Origin: Nitrosomonas communis
GTDB taxonomy: Bacteria; Pseudomonadota; Gammaproteobacteria; Burkholderiales; Nitrosomonadaceae
Direction: 5' to 3'
Length of the DNA stretch: 64,000 nucleotides
Assembly: GCF_001007935.1 (NCBI RefSeq)
Contig: NZ_CP011451.1
Coordinates: 1,240,001-1,304,000 of the forward strand
Position numbers and translations under genes: made by a program. How positions within the stretch are numbered: the stretch's first letter is position 1; each line of letters starts with the position of its first letter. Shown piece after piece: positions 4,457 through 60,771 of this stretch. The notes below the pieces were generated by a model. It saw only the letters and a list, made by a program, of their open reading frames with translations, had not been told where the DNA came from and did not search any database.

Positions 4457-5464
4457 CTAGAGGGTGCGTAATCCCAATTTGTCAAATAAGGCTTTATCGC
4501 TTTCTGTTTCGGGATTACCTGTCGTCAGCAGCTTGTCTCCATAAAAAATGGAGTTAGCGCCCGCCAGAAAACATAATGCCTGCACAGCCTCTGACATTTG
4601 CCGTCTTCCTGCAGATAACCTGACCATCGCTTTCGGCATCGTAATACGAGCTGCTGCAATGGTACGTACAAACTCGAACGGATCAAGGGGATCCGTACCA
4701 TAAAGCGGGGTTCCTTCAACTTGCACCAGATAATTGATCGGCACTGATTCAGGATAAGGATCCAGATTGGCCAGCTGGGCAATCAATCCAGCGCGAGCCA
4801 GCCGGGATTCCCCCATACCCACAATCCCCCCGCAGCACACATTGATGCCTGCCTTGCGCACTTCCTCAAGGGTATCGAGGCGATGCTGGTAGTCGCGTGT
4901 GCTAATGATTTCTTCATAGAACTCGGGTGAGGTATCCAGGTTATGATTGTAATAATCCAGGCCAGCCTGTTTGAGCTGCTCGGCCTGCCCTGGTTTCAGC
5001 ATGCCCAAAGTCGCACAGGTTTCAAGTCCCAGCACCTTCACAGCCACAATGATCTCGCTCATTTTATCAATATCACGTTGTTTGGGGCCACGCCAGGCTG
5101 CTCCCATACAAAATCGTGTCGCACCTTCCGCCTTGGCTGCCTGGGCAGCGGCCACAACGGTATCCAGCGACAGCATATCCTGATTCTCCACCCCGGTATG
5201 ATAGCGCGCGGCCTGGGGACAGTAACCACAGTCTTCCGGGCAGCCACCTGTTTTAACAGAAATCAGCGTAGATAATTGAACGGCATTGGCATCATGGTAT
5301 TGCCGATGAATGGTTTGCGCTTGATGAACCAAATCAGTGAAAGGGAGATCCAGTAAGGCCTGGATTTGTGGAACGCTCCATAGTGCCATACGGCTGCGAT
5401 CCTGTTGTTCACCCATAGATTGCTTTTTTTCGTTTGCAATAGACTTGGTACTGGATTCAATCAT
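4457..5464 (-). CDS. bioB: Biotin synthase, radical SAM
   Basis: Inserts sulfur into dethiobiotin to make biotin, using a 4Fe-4S cluster with SAM and a sacrificial 2Fe-2S cluster. The radical SAM motif C-x3-C-x2-C reads CPEDCGYC within [21 protein letters not shown]. The frame is open to an upstream ATG at 5524, but the likely promoter lies between 5490 and 5517, so the ATG at 5464 (MIESSTKS) is preferred; MGEQQDRSR at 5416 is a further option. Neither has a clear ribosome binding site. First gene of bioB-F-H-C-D. bioA is not in the window. Confidence 0.95.
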
Positions 5465-5531
5465 GATAAGGTCAGAAAATTTTGCTCGATCTATAATATA
5501 GTGCCAGGAATCATCAAGGATCACGCTTCAA
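5465..5531. promoter_or_regulatory. Divergent bioB / comF promoter region
   Basis: Only 67 bp separate the preferred bioB start from comF. On the minus strand, TTGATG (5517-5512) and TATAGA (5495-5490) form a plausible sigma-70 pair with 16-bp spacing, giving a short bioB leader. On the plus strand, TATAAT at 5492-5497 is a candidate -10 for comF without a clear -35. The two -10 boxes overlap, so the promoters may compete. I did not see the classical TTGTAAACC / GGTTTACAA biotin operator here. Assigned by eye. Confidence 0.4.
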
Positions 5532-6284
5532 TTGTCAAATTTTCTTTCAAAATTTTTGAACAGGCGATTAAATTTTGTGCAAACCCTGTTCCCAACCAAT
5601 TGTCTTTTATGCCTGGCAGACTGCGAAAGCGATCTGTGTCGTGCCTGTCGTGAGAGCTTACCCCAATTACCTTCTGAACATTGTTCTTTGTGCTTATTGC
5701 CCACAAAAGATTCCTGTATTTGTGGTAATTGCCTCAAGCATCCGCCAGTATGGACACAGGCGCTTGCAGCACTACAATACGTTTTTCCCATCGATGCCAT
5801 GATTCATTCGCTTAAATATCAAGGTAACCTGACTGTGGCGCCCATCTTGGCCAATCTATTGCTCGCAAAAATGAATCACTGCCCTCTACCCGATGTCATC
5901 ATCCCTGTTCCGCTTCATCCGATTAAATTACAGGAGAGAGGCTTTAACCAGGCGCTAGAAATCAGTCGACATATATCCAGACAAATCAATGTTCCCTTGC
6001 TGCCTCATGCTTGTGTGCGTACCAGAGACACGTTTTCTCAAACTGAGTTATCCTGGAAGAAACGGCTAACTAATATGCAAAATGCGTTTGAATGTACTAC
6101 GAGTCTCGCACATAAGCAGGTTGCCTTACTGGATGATGTCATGACAAGCGGTGCCACACTGAATGAATTGGACAAGGTGGTACGTAAACACGGCGCAACC
6201 CGGGTAAGTGTATGGGTGATCGCTAGAGCAATGCCGTCATCCGCTTTAATCAAAGCTACTGAGCATCATCAGACTATGTTATAG
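5532..6284 (+). CDS. comF: ComF/GntX-family phosphoribosyltransferase-like protein
   Basis: Double zinc-ribbon plus type I phosphoribosyltransferase protein; the family takes part in DNA uptake in competent bacteria. Cysteine pairs C24-x2-C27, C36-x2-C39, C51-x2-C54 and C64-x2-C67 form the N-terminal zinc region. The PRPP-binding loop VALLDDVMTSGAT is at 197-209. The start is TTG with AAGGA about 10 bases upstream, so the start is uncertain. It is divergent from bioB, the common arrangement near bio genes in beta- and gammaproteobacteria. Together with the pil operon 1.4 kb away it hints at transformation ability, which is inference. Confidence 0.88.
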   Translation: MSNFLSKFLNRRLNFVQTLFPTNCLLCLADCESDLCRACRESLPQLPSEHCSLCLLPTKDSCICGNCLKHPPVWTQALAALQYVFPIDAMIHSLKYQGNLTVAPILANLLLAKMNHCPLPDVIIPVPLHPIKLQERGFNQALEISRHISRQINVPLLPHACVRTRDTFSQTELSWKKRLTNMQNAFECTTSLAHKQVALLDDVMTSGATLNELDKVVRKHGATRVSVWVIARAMPSSALIKATEHHQTML

Positions 6285-6294
6285 AATATGCCTT

Positions 6295-6765
6295 ATGCTG
6301 AACGTTATTCTCTATCAACCTGAGATTCCTCCTAATACGGGCAATATCATCCGGCTCTGTGCCAATACAGGCGCTACACTTCATCTGATCAAACCGTTAG
6401 GGTTTCTTCTGAATGACAGGCAGCTGCTCCGGGCCGGACTCGACTATCATGAATTTGCTCATGTCGTGCTACACAAAGGTTGGGAAGAATGTATGCATAG
6501 CTTACCAGGACGGCGTATTTTTGCTGTGTCCACCAAAGGAACCCAACGCTATGATCAGGTTAAGTATCACCCTGAAGATGTTTTTCTGTTTGGTACAGAA
6601 ACCCGTGGATTACCGATTGAAATTCTGGAGAGCTTTTCCAATACGCAACGTATTCATATTCCCATGCTGCCTGACCGTCGCAGCTTGAATCTTGCTAATG
6701 CTGTTTCCATCGTAATCTACGAAGCTTGGCGACAGCTTGGGTTTATCGCAAACGGGAAATGTTAG
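6295..6765 (+). CDS. trmL: tRNA (cytidine/uridine-34-2'-O)-methyltransferase
   Basis: SPOUT-class enzyme that 2'-O-methylates the wobble base of tRNA-Leu isoacceptors. At 156 residues it is full length. It contains the N-terminal NVILYQPEIPPNTGNIIRLC, the LFGTETRGLP loop and the C-terminal knot IPMLPDRRSLNLANAVSIV, all characteristic of TrmL. It begins 10 bp after comF and is probably co-transcribed with it. Confidence 0.94.
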   Translation: MLNVILYQPEIPPNTGNIIRLCANTGATLHLIKPLGFLLNDRQLLRAGLDYHEFAHVVLHKGWEECMHSLPGRRIFAVSTKGTQRYDQVKYHPEDVFLFGTETRGLPIEILESFSNTQRIHIPMLPDRRSLNLANAVSIVIYEAWRQLGFIANGKC

Positions 6766-53407: not shown

Positions 53408-54718
53408 CTAACTCTGCAATGCTTCTAAAGAGGGGTCAGAAATATCTGCCAAATACCGCTCCAACTCTAGCGCAGCTGCCAATAATGCCAATCGAGCTAC
53501 TACGCCATAAGCATAAAACCGATTTACCGCGGCATCTGGGAGCGCGGTGTGGTTAGGTAAAACACAGGAAGTGTTAAAAGCCAACGGGACAAAATGCATC
53601 CCTGGAGCATTCAGATTCTCGTCAGCTCCTCTACTAGTATGAACTCGATAAAATCCACCCACCACATAGCGGTCTATCATGTAGATCACAGGCTCCGCAA
53701 CGGCATGATTGATGCTCTCGAAGGTATATACTCCTTCTTGTACCAATAAACGGGTGACTGGCAGGCCTTCTTTGATTTTAGTCATTTTGTTGCGCTGCTT
53801 ACGATTAAGCTTATAGACATCTGCGCTATCTTTAACCGTCATAATACCCATGCCATAAGTACCGGAATCAGCTTTGACAATTACGAATGGCTTTTCTTTG
53901 ACACCATATTGAGCATATTTCTCCTGCAGATCTTTCAATATCTCATCTACGGCAGCAGCAACGCATTCCTCACCTTTTTTCTCTCGAAAATCAATTTTGC
54001 CACAAGAGCTAAAATAAGGATTGATAAGCCATGGATCAATTCCGATTAATTCAGCAAATTCTTGGGCCACACTATCATAAGCAAAGAAATGCTGAGACTT
54101 TCTGCGCGTCGACCAACCTGCAGATAATGGCGGGATAACAATCTGCTCAAGATCCTTCAATATATCAGGAATACCACTAGAAAGATCGTTATTAAGCAGA
54201 ACAGCACAGGGATCGAAATTGTCCACCCCCAACCTATTATTTGTGCGCTGTATCGGTTCCAAAACAAGAGTATTTCCATCTGGAAGAGAAATTGTGGTCG
54301 CACTGGTTATTTCCGGCATCAGAGAACCAATACGAACATGCATACCGGCATGCCGCATAATGTCTCGTAATACGGCAACATTCTGTAAGTAGAAGATATT
54401 GCGAGTATGGCTTTCCGGTATCAACAATATGCTATGTGCATCAGGACAAATTTTTTCAACGGCAGCCATCATCGCTTGAACACAGAGTGGTAAAAATTCT
54501 GGGTTAAGATTATTGAATCCACCCGGAAAGAGATTAGTATCAACCGGCGCGAGTTTAAAACCACTGTTACGCAAGTCGACCGAACAATAAAAAGGAATGC
54601 TGTAATTCTGCCATTTACCACGTAGCCAGTGCTCAATCGTAGGCATAGCTTCCAGAATACGTCTTTCCAGTTCAAGAATCGGACCACGTAATGCAGTGGT
54701 AAGATGAGGTACCGACAT
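53408..54718 (-). CDS. gshA: Glutamate-cysteine ligase, GshA ferrooxidans-type
   Basis: First step of glutathione synthesis. It belongs to the proteobacterial GshA type first defined from acidithiobacilli, not the E. coli type: SVPHLTTALRGPILELERRI at the start, YCSVDLRNSGFKLAPVDTNL with the FPGGFNNL motif, then VKADSGTYGMGIMTV and RYVVGGFYRVHT. The frame opens at 54748, but MSVPHLTT at 54718 matches family starts; no strong ribosome binding site at either. Confidence 0.9.
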   Translation of the reverse strand: MSVPHLTTALRGPILELERRILEAMPTIEHWLRGKWQNYSIPFYCSVDLRNSGFKLAPVDTNLFPGGFNNLNPEFLPLCVQAMMAAVEKICPDAHSILLIPESHTRNIFYLQNVAVLRDIMRHAGMHVRIGSLMPEITSATTISLPDGNTLVLEPIQRTNNRLGVDNFDPCAVLLNNDLSSGIPDILKDLEQIVIPPLSAGWSTRRKSQHFFAYDSVAQEFAELIGIDPWLINPYFSSCGKIDFREKKGEECVAAAVDEILKDLQEKYAQYGVKEKPFVIVKADSGTYGMGIMTVKDSADVYKLNRKQRNKMTKIKEGLPVTRLLVQEGVYTFESINHAVAEPVIYMIDRYVVGGFYRVHTSRGADENLNAPGMHFVPLAFNTSCVLPNHTALPDAAVNRFYAYGVVARLALLAAALELERYLADISDPSLEALQS

Positions 54719-54748
54719 AGAGTAATTTATGTAATAAGAATAATTCAT

Positions 54749-55166: not shown

Positions 55167-56069
55167 ATGAAAGTATCCGAACAACCTTCGATTAGCTCAA
55201 TCGAACAGTCTATTCAGTCCAGTATTGTCGCCGAGACCATGTCAGCTGGCGGGAGTGCGACTCCGCCTAAAACAAGTAATTCACCTATCATCGATAGCGT
55301 TCCTCCGGTACAGATGGGACGTGACCTTGTCGAGGATGCAGTTAAAAAAAGCAAGTTTAACGTTTCTCAGATATTGGTGCGGGGATTTTTGTGTACACCC
55401 TTTCTCGCCTATGCCACGGCATTGTCTGCATTGTTGGTTGCGCAAGGGTGGCCAACAGCAGCTGCTGGCCTACTTTTCCCGGTTGGTTATATCATGCTGG
55501 CGATGCTTGGCCTTGAGATGGCCACAGGAAGCTTTTCCGTCATGCCTATGGCCCTGCTTGCAGGCAAAATTAAATTGCCAAGTGTGATTCGTAACTGGAC
55601 ATGGACTTTCCTGGCTAATCTAGCTGGCGGTATTTTCTTTGCTTGGTTGCTTTGGTTTGCATTGACCAAGGGGGGCGCAGGCGAAATTCCTCCCGTATTA
55701 ACCACATTAGCTCATCTCGCAGAAAAGAAAGCTTCTTATTCAGGATACGGTTTAACCGGCTGGTTTGCAGCCATTGGCATGGGTGTGTTATGTAACTGGT
55801 TAGTCAGCCTCGGTCCGGTTTTTTCGAAAGCATCACGTAGTGTTTCGGGCAAGGTGATGTTAATCTGGTTACCAATAGCAACCTTTTTTGCACTTGGTTT
55901 TGAGCATGCTGTCGTGAATATGTTTGTCTTTCCAGTAGGAATTCTATCTGGAGCGGATGTTACCGTTTCGCAATGGTGGTTATGGAATCAAATTCCAGTA
56001 ACGATAGGTAACATTATAGGCGCAGTAATATTTAACTCATTGTTGTGGTACCGTACGCACAGCGCATAA
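55167..56069 (+). CDS. Formate/nitrite transporter (FNT) family channel
   Basis: Pentameric inner-membrane channel for formate, nitrite or similar small anions. Six spans are visible between residues 70 and 295, with the family landmarks MLGLEMATGSFSVMP, LGFEHAVVNMFVFPVGIL and IPVTIGNIIGA. The first 65-70 residues are a soluble Ser/Pro-rich extension not usual in FocA or NirC. Specificity cannot be read from sequence; in a nitrifier nitrite export is an attractive guess. Confidence 0.88.
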   Translation: MKVSEQPSISSIEQSIQSSIVAETMSAGGSATPPKTSNSPIIDSVPPVQMGRDLVEDAVKKSKFNVSQILVRGFLCTPFLAYATALSALLVAQGWPTAAAGLLFPVGYIMLAMLGLEMATGSFSVMPMALLAGKIKLPSVIRNWTWTFLANLAGGIFFAWLLWFALTKGGAGEIPPVLTTLAHLAEKKASYSGYGLTGWFAAIGMGVLCNWLVSLGPVFSKASRSVSGKVMLIWLPIATFFALGFEHAVVNMFVFPVGILSGADVTVSQWWLWNQIPVTIGNIIGAVIFNSLLWYRTHSA

Positions 56070-57207
56070 AACACAACCTAAGACAAGTAGTAATGCGCGA
56101 TCACAACCAGTTAATTTCCTAAATAACCTCAGATATCATATATGAAGACGGGCGTAACCTGATGTAAGTCTTGACCATGCTTTTAGGTAGTATAGTAGGT
56201 TAAGGATAGTTTGCCATTAATCTTCTATACGAGTGGTTTTTGCTACTGGCACCTTGCATGATAGTATGCTTGAGATTGCCCCCAGGTCTTTCTCACGAGC
56301 AAGGGGGTTCTATCTAATTTGATAGAACTCCCCGCCCTCTATCACTTCCTTGTGTTCTTCCAACCGGGTTTTAGCCTGTTTTAAAGATCAATCCCGCAGT
56401 TAGCCAAAAACAGTAGGATCTTTTTGCTGGCTTTCTTAAATCCACAAAGCAAATGTTCGAATAAGTTGCTCGAAGATAGACTGGGCCACTGATTCTCGCC
56501 GGATAAGTTAGCTTATCTAGCTTATCAGTTCGATAGACCCGATCCACGTCAGCTTTGTCTGGAGCAATACCCGTCAGTTTGTAAATTTACTCCAATGATA
56601 CTCTAAGTATCGGGCCCATAAAATGGATTGCAATAAAGGAGTGTTCTACCGAATACAGCCGTTCAAATGCTCTTCCATACAGATCAGCCATTCCCCTGCT
56701 AATCGGTACGGCTTGTGACGCTGAGTCAACACTTGTTTACATGAAAAAGATTATCACCAAGATTGTTGTGTTCTTGCTTCTTTGGTTTGGTCAGATTCAT
56801 CAGAAAACGATATTACTATCATTGGACGCTTTAACAGTGCGAATACAATTTCATTTGCTTCTTTTAAGCACAAGCAATGGGGACGGGCTCATGCAGCTCA
56901 ATTCTTGCTTCCTGCGCAGGGATTCAATTCTTGCTTGCACTTGTTATTCTGACCGTGTTTTAATAGCATCAATATTTTCACTACTTGTACCTTCGGCCGC
57001 CGATTATGGCGCAGGCTACTTTTCTTCTGTCATTGCGATAGGTTCGGTCAATCCCTTTTAGGCACCAGAAATAGCATGTTACTTGGGCTTGTTTTGCTCA
57101 ATGGAGCAGAAGCTATCAAGATCTTCTTCTTTTCTTTTCCCCATCTGATACGGCAAGCGAAAATAACCAAGCTTTTTTGCCTGATCGATAAATACCCTGT
57201 TGCATTT
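56070..57207. other. 1.1-kb gap, mostly decayed sequence, with one strong hairpin
   Basis: No gene is supported. A hairpin at 56303-56333 pairs GTTCTATC with GATAGAAC around TAATTT and extends with GGGG/CCCC over a bulge; there is no T-run. The minus strand between about 56290 and 56740 shows short coding-like pieces with several stops, probably a dead insertion. A 106-codon plus-strand frame (56741-57061, MKKIITKIVVFLLLWFG) lacks a ribosome binding site and recognisable features. Confidence 0.5.
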
Positions 57208-57777
57208 TCAGGTATTGATAATTTTAATTCCAAACATAATGCGAAATACCCAAGCTATGGCCCAGGCACTTCCGCCTAACAAAAGTAACTGACCCAAAAT
57301 GCGCTGGTCACTCAACAGATAGTTTGCACAAAGGCGATCAGGTAGGTCTAAATACAACCAACCTAGACGCATAAAGGTAGCCCAAAATTCCAGTTTGAAA
57401 ACCCCTTGCGCAATAGGATGAAGCAATGGCCAGCTCAAACTAAGCGACATACCCATTATAAAGATAGTAACAAATTTTATTAGCTCGAAATACCATTCTG
57501 ATATTGCAGCATCGAGGGCGCGCGGCAACATCCAGTAAGTCATGATAACAATAGCAAGCGCCATGCCTGTTATTCCCCACTGATTCCATGACGCTATCTT
57601 ATTTTTCCAATTTTCAGGTAGTGATTTTCCAATCATCCACCCTATTATCGCTAATATCGGGATTTGGACCAGCATGTGTGTCACCATGCTCTGTTCCAGA
57701 AATTGCCGCAAGGGAGGTAAAGCCAGTGCAATAAATGCTGCCAGCAGCAGCCATTCCCGCTTAATCTTGTTGAACAT
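57208..57777 (-). CDS. Small integral membrane protein of the sNOR-like cluster (orf1)
   Basis: 189 residues, hydrophobic, with about five predicted spans (for example LLLAAFIALALPPLRQFL, GITGMALAIVIMTYWML and LLLLGGSAWAIAWVF). No enzymatic motif seen. It overlaps the senC-like gene by 17 bp, so translation is coupled. Its place corresponds to orf1 of the norSY-senC-orf1 cluster of Nitrosomonas; a role in assembly or membrane insertion is inference. Confidence 0.72.
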   Translation of the reverse strand: MFNKIKREWLLLAAFIALALPPLRQFLEQSMVTHMLVQIPILAIIGWMIGKSLPENWKNKIASWNQWGITGMALAIVIMTYWMLPRALDAAISEWYFELIKFVTIFIMGMSLSLSWPLLHPIAQGVFKLEFWATFMRLGWLYLDLPDRLCANYLLSDQRILGQLLLLGGSAWAIAWVFRIMFGIKIINT

Positions 57778-58387
57778 TTTCTTTATTTAATGATTGGGTT
57801 AAATATTCTTTTAGCTCATTAAGCTGCTCAACACCAAAAATAGCAACTAATCTACCCGCTCGATCGATGACGTGATAACCTGCAGAATGCGTATAACCGC
57901 CATACTCATCAGGAATAACGATTACCTTAAAGAAATCAAGGATGGCTTCCTTCTGAGGTGAACTTGTGGGGCGTGCTGCCATCCAGTATCTAAGGTTGGC
58001 AGAAAAATGGGAAAGATGCTCTCTCAGTTTCTGAGGAGTATCTTTCTCTGGGTCAAAACTGATACTTATAAGCTGCAAATTATTTTTCTCTAATTCCGAA
58101 GAAAAATCTTTTTGCAAGTCTTTCAGGCTACTGCCAAGTATCAAACATACACTTGGGCAGCTGGTATAAATAAAATCAATAACTATAAATTGATTACGAA
58201 AATCGTGTAAAGCAATCATCTCCGAATCTTGATTCTGTAACCGCCAGTTAGGGATAGGACGAGGATTCTCGCGTACCTCAAGGCGGCGCGCTTCTTCAAC
58301 AGTATAAGCGCGCCCCCCATCTGTACTTATCCAGAGAATGAGTAATCCAGCTATGACTATCAAGGTCGTTGCCAGGAATGTTCTCAT
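57761..58387 (-). CDS. senC: SCO1/SenC-family copper chaperone
   Basis: Membrane-anchored thioredoxin-fold protein that delivers copper to CuA or CuB centres. One N-terminal anchor (residues 5-20), the copper-binding C77-x3-C81 in YTSCPSVCLI and a histidine (His167, in GYTHSAGY). 208 residues. AAGGAGA precedes the ATG. Lies 144 bp after the coxA-like gene, as expected for an assembly factor of a CuA-containing complex. Confidence 0.9.
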   Translation of the reverse strand: MRTFLATTLIVIAGLLILWISTDGGRAYTVEEARRLEVRENPRPIPNWRLQNQDSEMIALHDFRNQFIVIDFIYTSCPSVCLILGSSLKDLQKDFSSELEKNNLQLISISFDPEKDTPQKLREHLSHFSANLRYWMAARPTSSPQKEAILDFFKVIVIPDEYGGYTHSAGYHVIDRAGRLVAIFGVEQLNELKEYLTQSLNKENVQQD

Positions 58388-58531
58388 GCTTTTTTGATTC
58401 TCCTTAGAAGAAAAAGCCGGAAATATCTTATATCAGACGCTTTGTCTGCTTACAACCAGTTTGCATTGACTCCTTAATGATACTTCAGGCACTTCTCTTA
58501 TAATTCTCCCTGATAAGGGAGAATTATAATT

Positions 58532-60013
58532 CTAGCGTGGCTCAGCAGCTTTAGGCAAACTGAAGAGCGCACGGAAAGTAAATACTAACATGCCCAGCAC
58601 AACCAATGCAGCCGCAACTGTGCCCACCTGCGCAAAAGTTACCCACTCTGCCATATGTGTTGCCCAGCGGCGAGGAATGCTGCTTGCACCGCTGGCAAGA
58701 AACACCATAGATGTCAAGAAGGCGCCTATTAAATAGGCGTAAAAACCCACGTTATCGGCCGCTTTAGGTTGCTCGCCTTGACGTCCTTCACCCGTCAAGT
58801 GATAGATAAAGCCGAACATCATTGGCAGTAATCCGAGTAACAAGTAGAAATGGAAATGCCCCGGTACCCACATGGTGTTATGAAATACCCTGTTAACGGT
58901 AACCATAGCATCCAGAATAGCTGGAATTACACCGGCTGCCCAGCCAAACATCGATAAGAACAACAATTTTGTAGTAGTGCTCCATTGAATGCCAGAGCGA
59001 TAAACAATCATCAATGCACCGTAACCGGTAACGACCAGAACCGGTATACCGCTACCAAAAGAAAGCACTTGCCCCACTATCAATGCCCATTGCGGCATGG
59101 GGAAATCCATCATCAAATGATGTGGATAAACCGCCATCACCATGAACACAATAGCGAACCAGGCTGCATAAAACACTTTACTGGTTTTCCATGGACGCCC
59201 AGTATAACGAGGAAGCAATTCGTATACCGCGGTAACAGAAGCGTAAATAGTAGCGTTAATGAAGACATGACCAAAGAAATAAATCAAATTTTTCATCAGC
59301 AATGCATCAGGCTGAAATTCTGGGTTATATAGATTGATCAGGCCCATGACCAATACCACCGCTCCAACTGCAATCCCCAAGAAGTTGACAATGAGAACCA
59401 TGGTACCAGCTACGACAGTTGGTGGATGGGTAGTATCGACTGGCACTCTCCCAAAAAGTTGTGGGAGTCCGAGTGCTTTTGACAGGCTGCCAAAACTAGC
59501 CAGAATACCTCTGCCCATATCCAGGTAAAGAATCAAGAAGCCAGTTCCGATAATGAGCAATGCCAATTGAAAAACAGCTGCAGCACCAGTTGACCAGACC
59601 CCCATAGATTTTCCTGGCAAGGGATAGAGAAAGGTCCATGCACCGCCATAACCCCCTAGAAAAATAGAGCCCAAGAGCATGACCACGCCCGCCACAAAAA
59701 CGAAGAAATTGATCCAGAAGATGGTGTTGCTTAAGCGCACATATTGCCGCAGAAAATACCATAACACACCTGTGGAGCCAATTCCCGCAGCACCTACGAC
59801 TCCTACTCCATGGACTGTCATGATTTGATAAAACAAATCAGCGCCAATTTCCAGCCAAGTACCTTGTACTGCCCGCATGGTTAGCCCCGCTAACATCATC
59901 AACAGTAAGACTGCCAGACCCAAGATAAGATGCGCCTTGACCGCAATCAGAGCCTTTCTATTTTCTGATTCACTATATTCAATCTTTCTATTCGCTACTG
60001 CTGTACTACTCAT
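58532..60013 (-). CDS. norS: Heme-copper oxidase superfamily catalytic subunit, sNOR-like (NorS)
   Basis: Subunit I of a heme-copper enzyme; in Nitrosomonas the same arrangement encodes sNOR, which reduces nitric oxide to nitrous oxide. With the open frame counted from 60025, putative ligands are His72 (TVHGVG), His253 (FFGHVFINATIY), His302-His303 (YPHHLMMD) and His390/His392 (GHFHFYL): a low-spin heme pair, a high-spin heme ligand and a CuB site. After the first CuB histidine, oxidases have Tyr four residues on (HPEVY); here that position is Asn257. About twelve spans. The frame opens at a GTG at 60025, but ATG at 60013 (MSSTAVANRK) has GGAGGG six bases upstream. An oxidase function cannot be excluded by sequence alone. 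Confidence 0.85.
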   Translation of the reverse strand: MSSTAVANRKIEYSESENRKALIAVKAHLILGLAVLLLMMLAGLTMRAVQGTWLEIGADLFYQIMTVHGVGVVGAAGIGSTGVLWYFLRQYVRLSNTIFWINFFVFVAGVVMLLGSIFLGGYGGAWTFLYPLPGKSMGVWSTGAAAVFQLALLIIGTGFLILYLDMGRGILASFGSLSKALGLPQLFGRVPVDTTHPPTVVAGTMVLIVNFLGIAVGAVVLVMGLINLYNPEFQPDALLMKNLIYFFGHVFINATIYASVTAVYELLPRYTGRPWKTSKVFYAAWFAIVFMVMAVYPHHLMMDFPMPQWALIVGQVLSFGSGIPVLVVTGYGALMIVYRSGIQWSTTTKLLFLSMFGWAAGVIPAILDAMVTVNRVFHNTMWVPGHFHFYLLLGLLPMMFGFIYHLTGEGRQGEQPKAADNVGFYAYLIGAFLTSMVFLASGASSIPRRWATHMAEWVTFAQVGTVAAALVVLGMLVFTFRALFSLPKAAEPR

Positions 60014-60057
60014 AGTGCCCTCCACTCTTTAATTATCCTTGTTTACTGATGAACTGC

Positions 60058-60582
60058 TTATTTTACTGTTAGCTCGGTGATCATGGCATGATGAGCTACA
60101 CCACAATACTCAAGACAGAGAATTTTATATTTCCCTGGTTTGTCAAAGGTATGAATCAGTTTGTTAGTGTAGCCCGGCATTGCCTGAGTCTGTCCTAGTA
60201 ATTCCAGATTTTCATCATAAATACCGAAACCATGATTCACGTCTCCCGAGGTAACAAGGAATGTTACCGGTTTACCTGCTTCAACGGTGTTGGGTGTCAT
60301 TGTCCAATACCACTGATAGGAATCGACTTTAACGACTTGATACTCATTCTCTTGATAGCCTTTCTTCTGATCGGGAATCGGGAACGGACTAAGAGAAAGA
60401 TATGTAATGATAACCCCAAGTGTCAGTAGGAAAAAAAACCACTTGCCGCGGATCCCGTACCATTTTTTTGTAACTGTTGAATAATCTGCTTCAACCTTCT
60501 TTGAATTAACAAGGACGAAACAGAAAACTGCTGCTATTAAAGCCATGACCACAAGTGTAATGGCGTAGACTGTTGAGACCAT
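60058..60582 (-). CDS. norY: CuA subunit II, sNOR-like (NorY)
   Basis: Electron-input subunit facing the periplasm. 174 residues with two N-terminal spans (about 5-25 and 48-64) and a cupredoxin domain carrying a complete CuA site: His117 (DVNHGFG), Cys156, Cys160, His164 and Met167 (CLEYCGVAHHAM). It is much shorter than mitochondrial-type subunit II and has no fused cytochrome c domain, so a soluble cytochrome c would be the donor. GGAGGGAGA precedes the ATG. First gene of the cluster, 44 bp before norS. Confidence 0.87.
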   Translation of the reverse strand: MVSTVYAITLVVMALIAAVFCFVLVNSKKVEADYSTVTKKWYGIRGKWFFFLLTLGVIITYLSLSPFPIPDQKKGYQENEYQVVKVDSYQWYWTMTPNTVEAGKPVTFLVTSGDVNHGFGIYDENLELLGQTQAMPGYTNKLIHTFDKPGKYKILCLEYCGVAHHAMITELTVK

Positions 60583-60771
60583 TTTAAATTTCTCCCTCCA
60601 TTTTTATTGATATACAGAATCGCGAATCTACATTTGATATAAAGTGATGTCAACTTATTCTTTTCATTAAAAAAATCCCTTTTTGTTTTGTGGTTTATTT
60701 CAGTGTGTCAGGGATAGCTTTCCTTTCGTCGCAGTTGGAACCTAAATAATTGAAGAACCAAGCGAGAGGAG

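Follow-up and report, generated by a model that had tools for sequence, protein, structure and literature searches.

The classes of nitric oxide (NO) reductases (NORs) within the heme-copper superfamily are reportedly set out by Hemp and Gennis in 2008 and by Murali et al. in 2024. At the active site, NORs swap the tyrosine of oxygen reductases for Glu, Gln, Asp or Asn (PMC3475470), the residue being tabulated as Tyr in oxygen reductases, Glu in cNOR and qNOR, Asn in sNOR, Gln in eNOR, Asp in gNOR and again Asn in the CuA-containing NOR of Bacillus (PMC8756737, Table A4); these two papers, like PMC4940428, PMC6967387 and PMC4964001 below, are cited from excerpts. An Asn-type CuA enzyme has been assigned to the NO reductase purified from Bacillus azotoformans (PMC3475470), and the genes of sNOR, norSY-senC-orf1, have been annotated earlier in Nitrosomonas, N. 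communis Nm2 included (PMC4714114, PMC4940428). Ammonia oxidisers emit nitrous oxide (N2O), and the place of sNOR as a producer of N2O or as a respirer of O2 is disputed in the literature. The present analysis concerns a norS-norY-senC-orf1 cluster on the minus strand of a 64,000-nt window of N. communis contig NZ_CP011451.1, and all positions below are those of the window. These four genes are likely to specify a heme-copper enzyme with a CuA centre that belongs to the published sNOR type. Its predicted reaction is the reduction of NO to N2O, because Asn257 of its catalytic subunit replaces the cross-linked Tyr of oxygen reductases. The genes are the following.

60058..60582, minus strand: norS, the CuA (cupredoxin) subunit II, 174 amino acids (aa), with matches to CoxB and PF00116 (Pfam/NCBIfam).
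58532..60025, minus strand: norY, the heme-copper catalytic subunit I, 497 aa, identified by PF00115 (E-value 7.7e-53), motif and conservation.
57761..58387, minus strand: senC/SCO, a copper chaperone-like protein, 208 aa, with C77-x3-C81 and H167 (PF02630, E-value 8.9e-18; motif).
57208..57777, minus strand: orf1, a small membrane protein, 189 aa, with about five predicted membrane segments (hydropathy scan).

The open reading frames match the order given in a first-pass annotation of the window (CuA subunit, catalytic subunit, SCO protein, small membrane protein), all on the minus strand, and the same order is found in 13/13 Nitrosomonas loci besides the window; orf1 adjoins norY in Nitrosomonas and in most other sNOR loci. 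NorS carries C156-x-E158-x-C160-x3-H164-x2-M167 together with H117, a complete CuA ligand pattern in the roles that we take these residues to have. Translation of norY probably begins at ATG 60013, giving 493 aa, rather than at GTG 60025, because the database copy of the protein (P0001) is 493 aa long. The closest known system is the sNOR of Nitrosomonas and Nitrosospira, for example AAW31_05895-910 of strain Nm2 and NE0683-86 of N. europaea. The gene order, the CuA subunit, the SCO protein, orf1 and the active-site Asn are shared with it, NorY identity ranges from 77 to 99% in the named genomes (Nitrosomonas sp. Nm34 99%, N. halophila 88%, N. europaea 81%, N. eutropha 79-80% and N. mobilis 77%), and no difference was found. 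Within its known family NorSY is unremarkable, and the novelty implied at first does not hold: the Asn is a published mark of sNOR, and the cluster was very probably annotated in the N. communis genome already in 2016.

All six heme-copper histidines are in place in NorY (H72, H253, H302, H303, H390 and H392), and the segment at the first CuB histidine reads G252-H253-V-F-I-N257-A-T-I-Y261. It had been described as VFINATIY instead of the oxidase PEVY pattern, with Asn replacing the cross-link Tyr, and both statements are confirmed: N257, four residues after the histidine (His+4), shares its alignment column with the cross-link Tyr of A- and B-type oxidases. Asn257 and Tyr261 are each present in 121/121 aligned rows, made up of the query and the best 120 of at least 2,484 matching relatives, which speaks against a chance occurrence. 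The Tyr said to follow eight residues on does so when counted from His253, but it stands only four residues past Asn257. The absence of a NorB-type glutamate is also corroborated, given that the NorB-like protein of the same genome (L003) carries Glu at this position and NorY has Asn257. Among the rows used for the tree, His+4 is Asn in 31/31 Asn-type rows (sNOR and its sister group), Tyr in 17/17 A/B-type oxidase rows, Gln in 4/4 eNOR-like rows, Glu in 3/3 cNOR-like rows and Asp in the single gNOR-like row; these counts are descriptive, the group labels having been assigned after viewing motifs and loci and the row names NorB-like, eNOR-like, gNOR-like, C-type and B-type resting on motifs. 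The column of Tyr261 (His+8) is occupied by Leu, Met or Ile throughout the 17 A/B-type rows; the four B-type rows among them combine a +4 Tyr with either Leu or Met in the +8 column. A sequencing artefact is ruled out by the same Asn in the 99%-identical copy of Nitrosomonas sp. Nm34 (L005) and in all of the 120 best relatives.

With eNOR and cNOR, NorY shares the setting of a superfamily NO reductase with a non-Tyr active-site residue, Gln and Glu respectively in those enzymes instead of Asn; the partner of cNOR is heme c, not CuA (PMC8756737). The Bacillus CuA-type NOR (qCuANOR, bNOR), compared here by its description only, likewise combines Asn at the Tyr position with a CuA subunit (PMC3475470, PMC8756737), and is listed in the excerpt with one proton channel against none for sNOR (PMC8756737). 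Two unusual rows were also seen. The sNOR of a Phaeospirillum metagenome-assembled genome (MAG; L018, norY at 5010-6467) has Gln (codon CAG) at CuB-His302 and Phe at Tyr268, a variant or an assembly error, and a gNOR-like heme-copper protein (L090), from the phylum to which a Thermomicrobiales genome belongs, has Asp at both the first CuB-His and the Tyr positions.

The tree was built under LG+C20 from 61 rows (56 of the 101 distinct rows of one alignment plus 5 from a second set) after removal of the two diagnostic columns. It includes four B-type rows, one gNOR-like row and no identified bNOR; a search for CoxIIa served solely to find B-type oxidases, and the program warned of long branches. 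The sNOR clade comprises 23 rows, the N. europaea and N. eutropha copies among them, with a support of 100/99, and forms one clade (100/100) with a deeper sister group of eight Asn-type rows whose own support is moderate (90/86) and most of which belong to the same phylum as a Thermomicrobiales genome. The sister rows (L042, L044, L046, L084-L088) are 33-38% identical to NorY, and 8/8 combine a +4 Asn with a +8 Tyr; they could presumably represent the proposed nNOR. eNOR-like rows group with the B-type oxygen reductases (100/99) and sNOR does not. Clustering with canonical oxygen reductases, named at first as an outcome that would contradict an sNOR, was not found: NorY lies outside the sampled A-, B- and C-type enzymes in the free tree, and a forced clade of the Asn-type rows with the four B-type rows alone is rejected by the approximately unbiased (AU) test (p-AU 0.0125), in which the groupings were picked after inspection of the tree, the B-type question itself coming from the literature.

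Several observations weigh against an NO-reducing enzyme, and some of them also speak for the proposal, made for N. europaea, of an oxygen reductase descended from the B type, with high affinity and active at low O2 without the cross-linked Tyr, which we consider improbable for NorSY. The N. europaea cluster was induced 2.7- to 10.8-fold under O2 limitation, with no significant change of cNOR, and the authors of that study favoured a high-affinity oxidase and stated an affiliation of NorY with B-type oxidases (PMC6967387). Among solved chains NorS resembles cytochrome c oxidase subunit II, including the CuA subunit of the B-type Thermus ba3 oxidase. NorY has in common with ba3-like enzymes the fold, the six histidines and two of four columns that we take to be B-type K-pathway residues (Tyr268 and Thr333). 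A structure model of NorY was predicted with good scores (predicted local distance difference test, pLDDT, 87.9; predicted template modelling score, pTM, 0.90). Fold comparison places A-type oxidases on top, with C-type and B-type chains lower, in a ranking that does not discriminate; NOR chains are missing from the 50 rows listed in either fold comparison, which excludes nothing. Finally, joining the Asn clade to B-type plus eNOR rows (p-AU 0.272) or to A-type rows (0.115) is not rejected, nor is joining it to gNOR (0.333), so that its deeper placement may include an origin in the B lineage.

Against an oxidase of this kind stand the Asn found at the Tyr position throughout the Asn-type rows, the rejection of a clade with B-type oxygen reductases alone, and the loss of the other two columns with presumed K-pathway roles in ba3, at Val264 (Tyr) and Val329 (Ser). 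Nor is there a replacement Tyr of the C-type kind: a Tyr placed six positions ahead of the His pair in helix VII, which we take to be the C-type cross-link residue, is present in 5/5 C-type rows and in 0/31 Asn-type rows, and NorY has Val there. Efficient O2 reduction is unlikely because the Tyr that provides both the electron and the proton needed to split the O-O bond is missing. The results weaken, without settling, the published proposal of sNOR as a B-type high-affinity oxidase, and the affiliation of NorY with B-type oxidases (PMC6967387, excerpt) does not hold if taken narrowly, a shared origin with the wider B/eNOR lineage being possible. The loss of two K-pathway columns fits, without proving, the "0 channels" given for sNOR in the excerpt of PMC8756737.

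Hardly credible is an enzyme that is bifunctional or resembles an oxidase and whose Tyr261 would do the redox work of the absent Tyr: Tyr261 is as invariant as Asn257 and replaces the aliphatic or Met residue of A/B-type oxidases, but, judging by sequence spacing, it lies eight positions, or some two turns of the helix, away from His253, apparently too distant for the usual His-Tyr bond. The remaining identities were rejected, a plain oxidase and an A- or B-type oxygen reductase with the cross-link Tyr by Asn in its place at His+4, a C-type (cbb3) enzyme with a relocated Tyr by the Val just mentioned, the cNOR/qNOR catalytic subunit by the lack of Glu at His+4 together with the CuA partner, and eNOR by Asn257 where Gln would be expected. 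Gene order, the Asn of the active site, the CuA partner and the tree all uphold the original assignment to sNOR, and its corollary, that the sequence argues against a normal oxygen reductase, finds support in Asn257 and the separate clade. The invariant Asn and the separation from B-type oxygen reductases in the tree favour NO reduction, and the remaining value of the analysis lies in this sequence-based support within the dispute over NO and O2 as substrates of sNOR.

As an sNOR, the enzyme would work along lines known from other heme-copper enzymes. Electrons would pass from a periplasmic cytochrome c to CuA, and from there to a low-spin heme (H72/H392) and on to the site formed by a high-spin heme (H390) and CuB (H253/H302/H303), where the chemistry known for the superfamily would turn two molecules of NO, with two electrons and two protons, into N2O and water. 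Its probable role would be the removal of NO as O2 becomes scarce. Most of this NO would come from hydroxylamine oxidation, because no NirK above the family cut-off was found in the genome (best match 20.8 bits against 296.3). N. communis Nm2 has been described with norCBQD and norSY-senC-orf1 and without nirK (PMC4714114), and the excerpt of PMC4940428 presents it as the sole closed ammonia-oxidiser genome lacking nirK, with locus tags AAW31_05895-910 for norSY and AAW31_10555-70 for norCBQD. According to the same excerpt, strains with neither NOR showed no re-consumption of NO, and N. communis and N. europaea, both of which also have cNOR, re-consumed a little after anoxia (PMC4940428), which counts in favour of NO reduction. 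A Nitrosomonas with norSY and cNOR and without NirK would be a clean strain in which to follow the fate of hydroxylamine-derived NO at sNOR.

PF00115 is found in four proteins of the genome: two carry the HPEVY motif of oxidases, one is NorB-like with Glu, and the fourth is NorY. The norSY cluster lies at 1.298 Mb of the chromosome and the second cluster, norCBQD, at 2.331 Mb. In a sample of 85 genomes of the genus, NorY matches of at least 78% identity occur at 14 places in 13 genomes, one further genome has a match of 52% and another of 33%, and the remaining matches are weak. In the class sample, 13/369 genomes (that of the query included) reach at least 50% identity to NorY, and one has a match of 34%.

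Two further features of the cluster can be predicted.

60625..60653, minus strand: norS promoter, TTGACA, 17 nt, TAGATT, kept in 14/14 Nitrosomonas loci.
58491..58530, minus strand (limits approximate): strong hairpin right after the norY stop and before senC, from folding against shuffles.

The promoter is predicted from its conservation, TTGACA-17-TAGATT/TAAATT standing upstream of norS in all 14 Nitrosomonas loci, that of the window among them; these loci are related, two come from one MAG, and the norS starts of some relatives were placed by hand. Across the window, promoter-like sites show no excess (12 observed against 12.1 expected from shuffles), and no match to FNR-, NnrR- or NsrR-like patterns was found upstream of norS in the 15 loci scanned. 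In most Nitrosomonas loci an A-rich stretch of the form AATAAACCACAA...GGATTTT precedes the -35 box by some 20-45 nt (promoter and stretch at 60625-60700, minus strand); it is clearly missing from L012 and L017. The stretch containing the hairpin, 58470-58540, folds at -23.5 kcal/mol, with a z-score of -4.84 against 200 shuffles. In 12/14 Nitrosomonas loci, L010 and L013 being the exceptions, the first 70 nt after norY fold at -16 kcal/mol or below although their sequences differ, these being fold energies, with the shuffle test applied to the window. The hairpin may separate the expression of norSY from that of senC-orf1.

Beyond orf1 lies a convergent neighbour.

55167..56069, plus strand: formate/nitrite transporter (FNT) family gene, PF01226 (E-value 1.8e-59) and adjacency in relatives.

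This gene is an associated neighbour outside the predicted norS-orf1 operon, and its position beside the cluster in ammonia oxidisers is in print (PMC4964001). It adjoins the cluster in convergent orientation in 13/14 Nitrosomonas loci, and on the same strand in six of 26 other Asn-type loci (L042, L043, L045, L142-L144), namely those of Ruegeria pomeroyi, the 52%-identity copy of the genus, Thermomicrobium roseum and three more members of the Thermomicrobium phylum; the count omits the incomplete locus L047 and the duplicates L136 and L137. In the other 20 of the 26 it was not found; among them are all 11 class-sample loci, which were followed outward for up to about 10 kb where the contig allowed. 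A wider proposal can be put forward tentatively, and as a rather unlikely one: that Asn-type enzymes are a separate, dedicated NO-reductase lineage and not altered B-type oxidases, marked by an unvarying Asn257/Tyr261 pair whose Tyr, a single turn of the helix beyond the Asn, belongs to a proton or substrate route, and that they form with a formate/nitrite-family channel a module recurring across phyla. If so, nitrite handling would be tied to NO removal.

The spacer between the FNT gene and orf1 measures 1.1-1.2 kb in the window (56070-57207) and in Nm34 (L005, 6433-7678), as if by insertion, against 46-241 bp in the remaining 11 Nitrosomonas loci with the gene pair. Just past the FNT gene, gshA (glutamate-cysteine ligase, TIGR02049) is found in the window (53408-54748, minus strand), L005, L008 and L009, and gshA also lies near the sNOR cluster in L045. 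An Rrf2-family regulator, mostly divergent, stands near the cluster in 6/11 class-sample loci and in L043 and L138.

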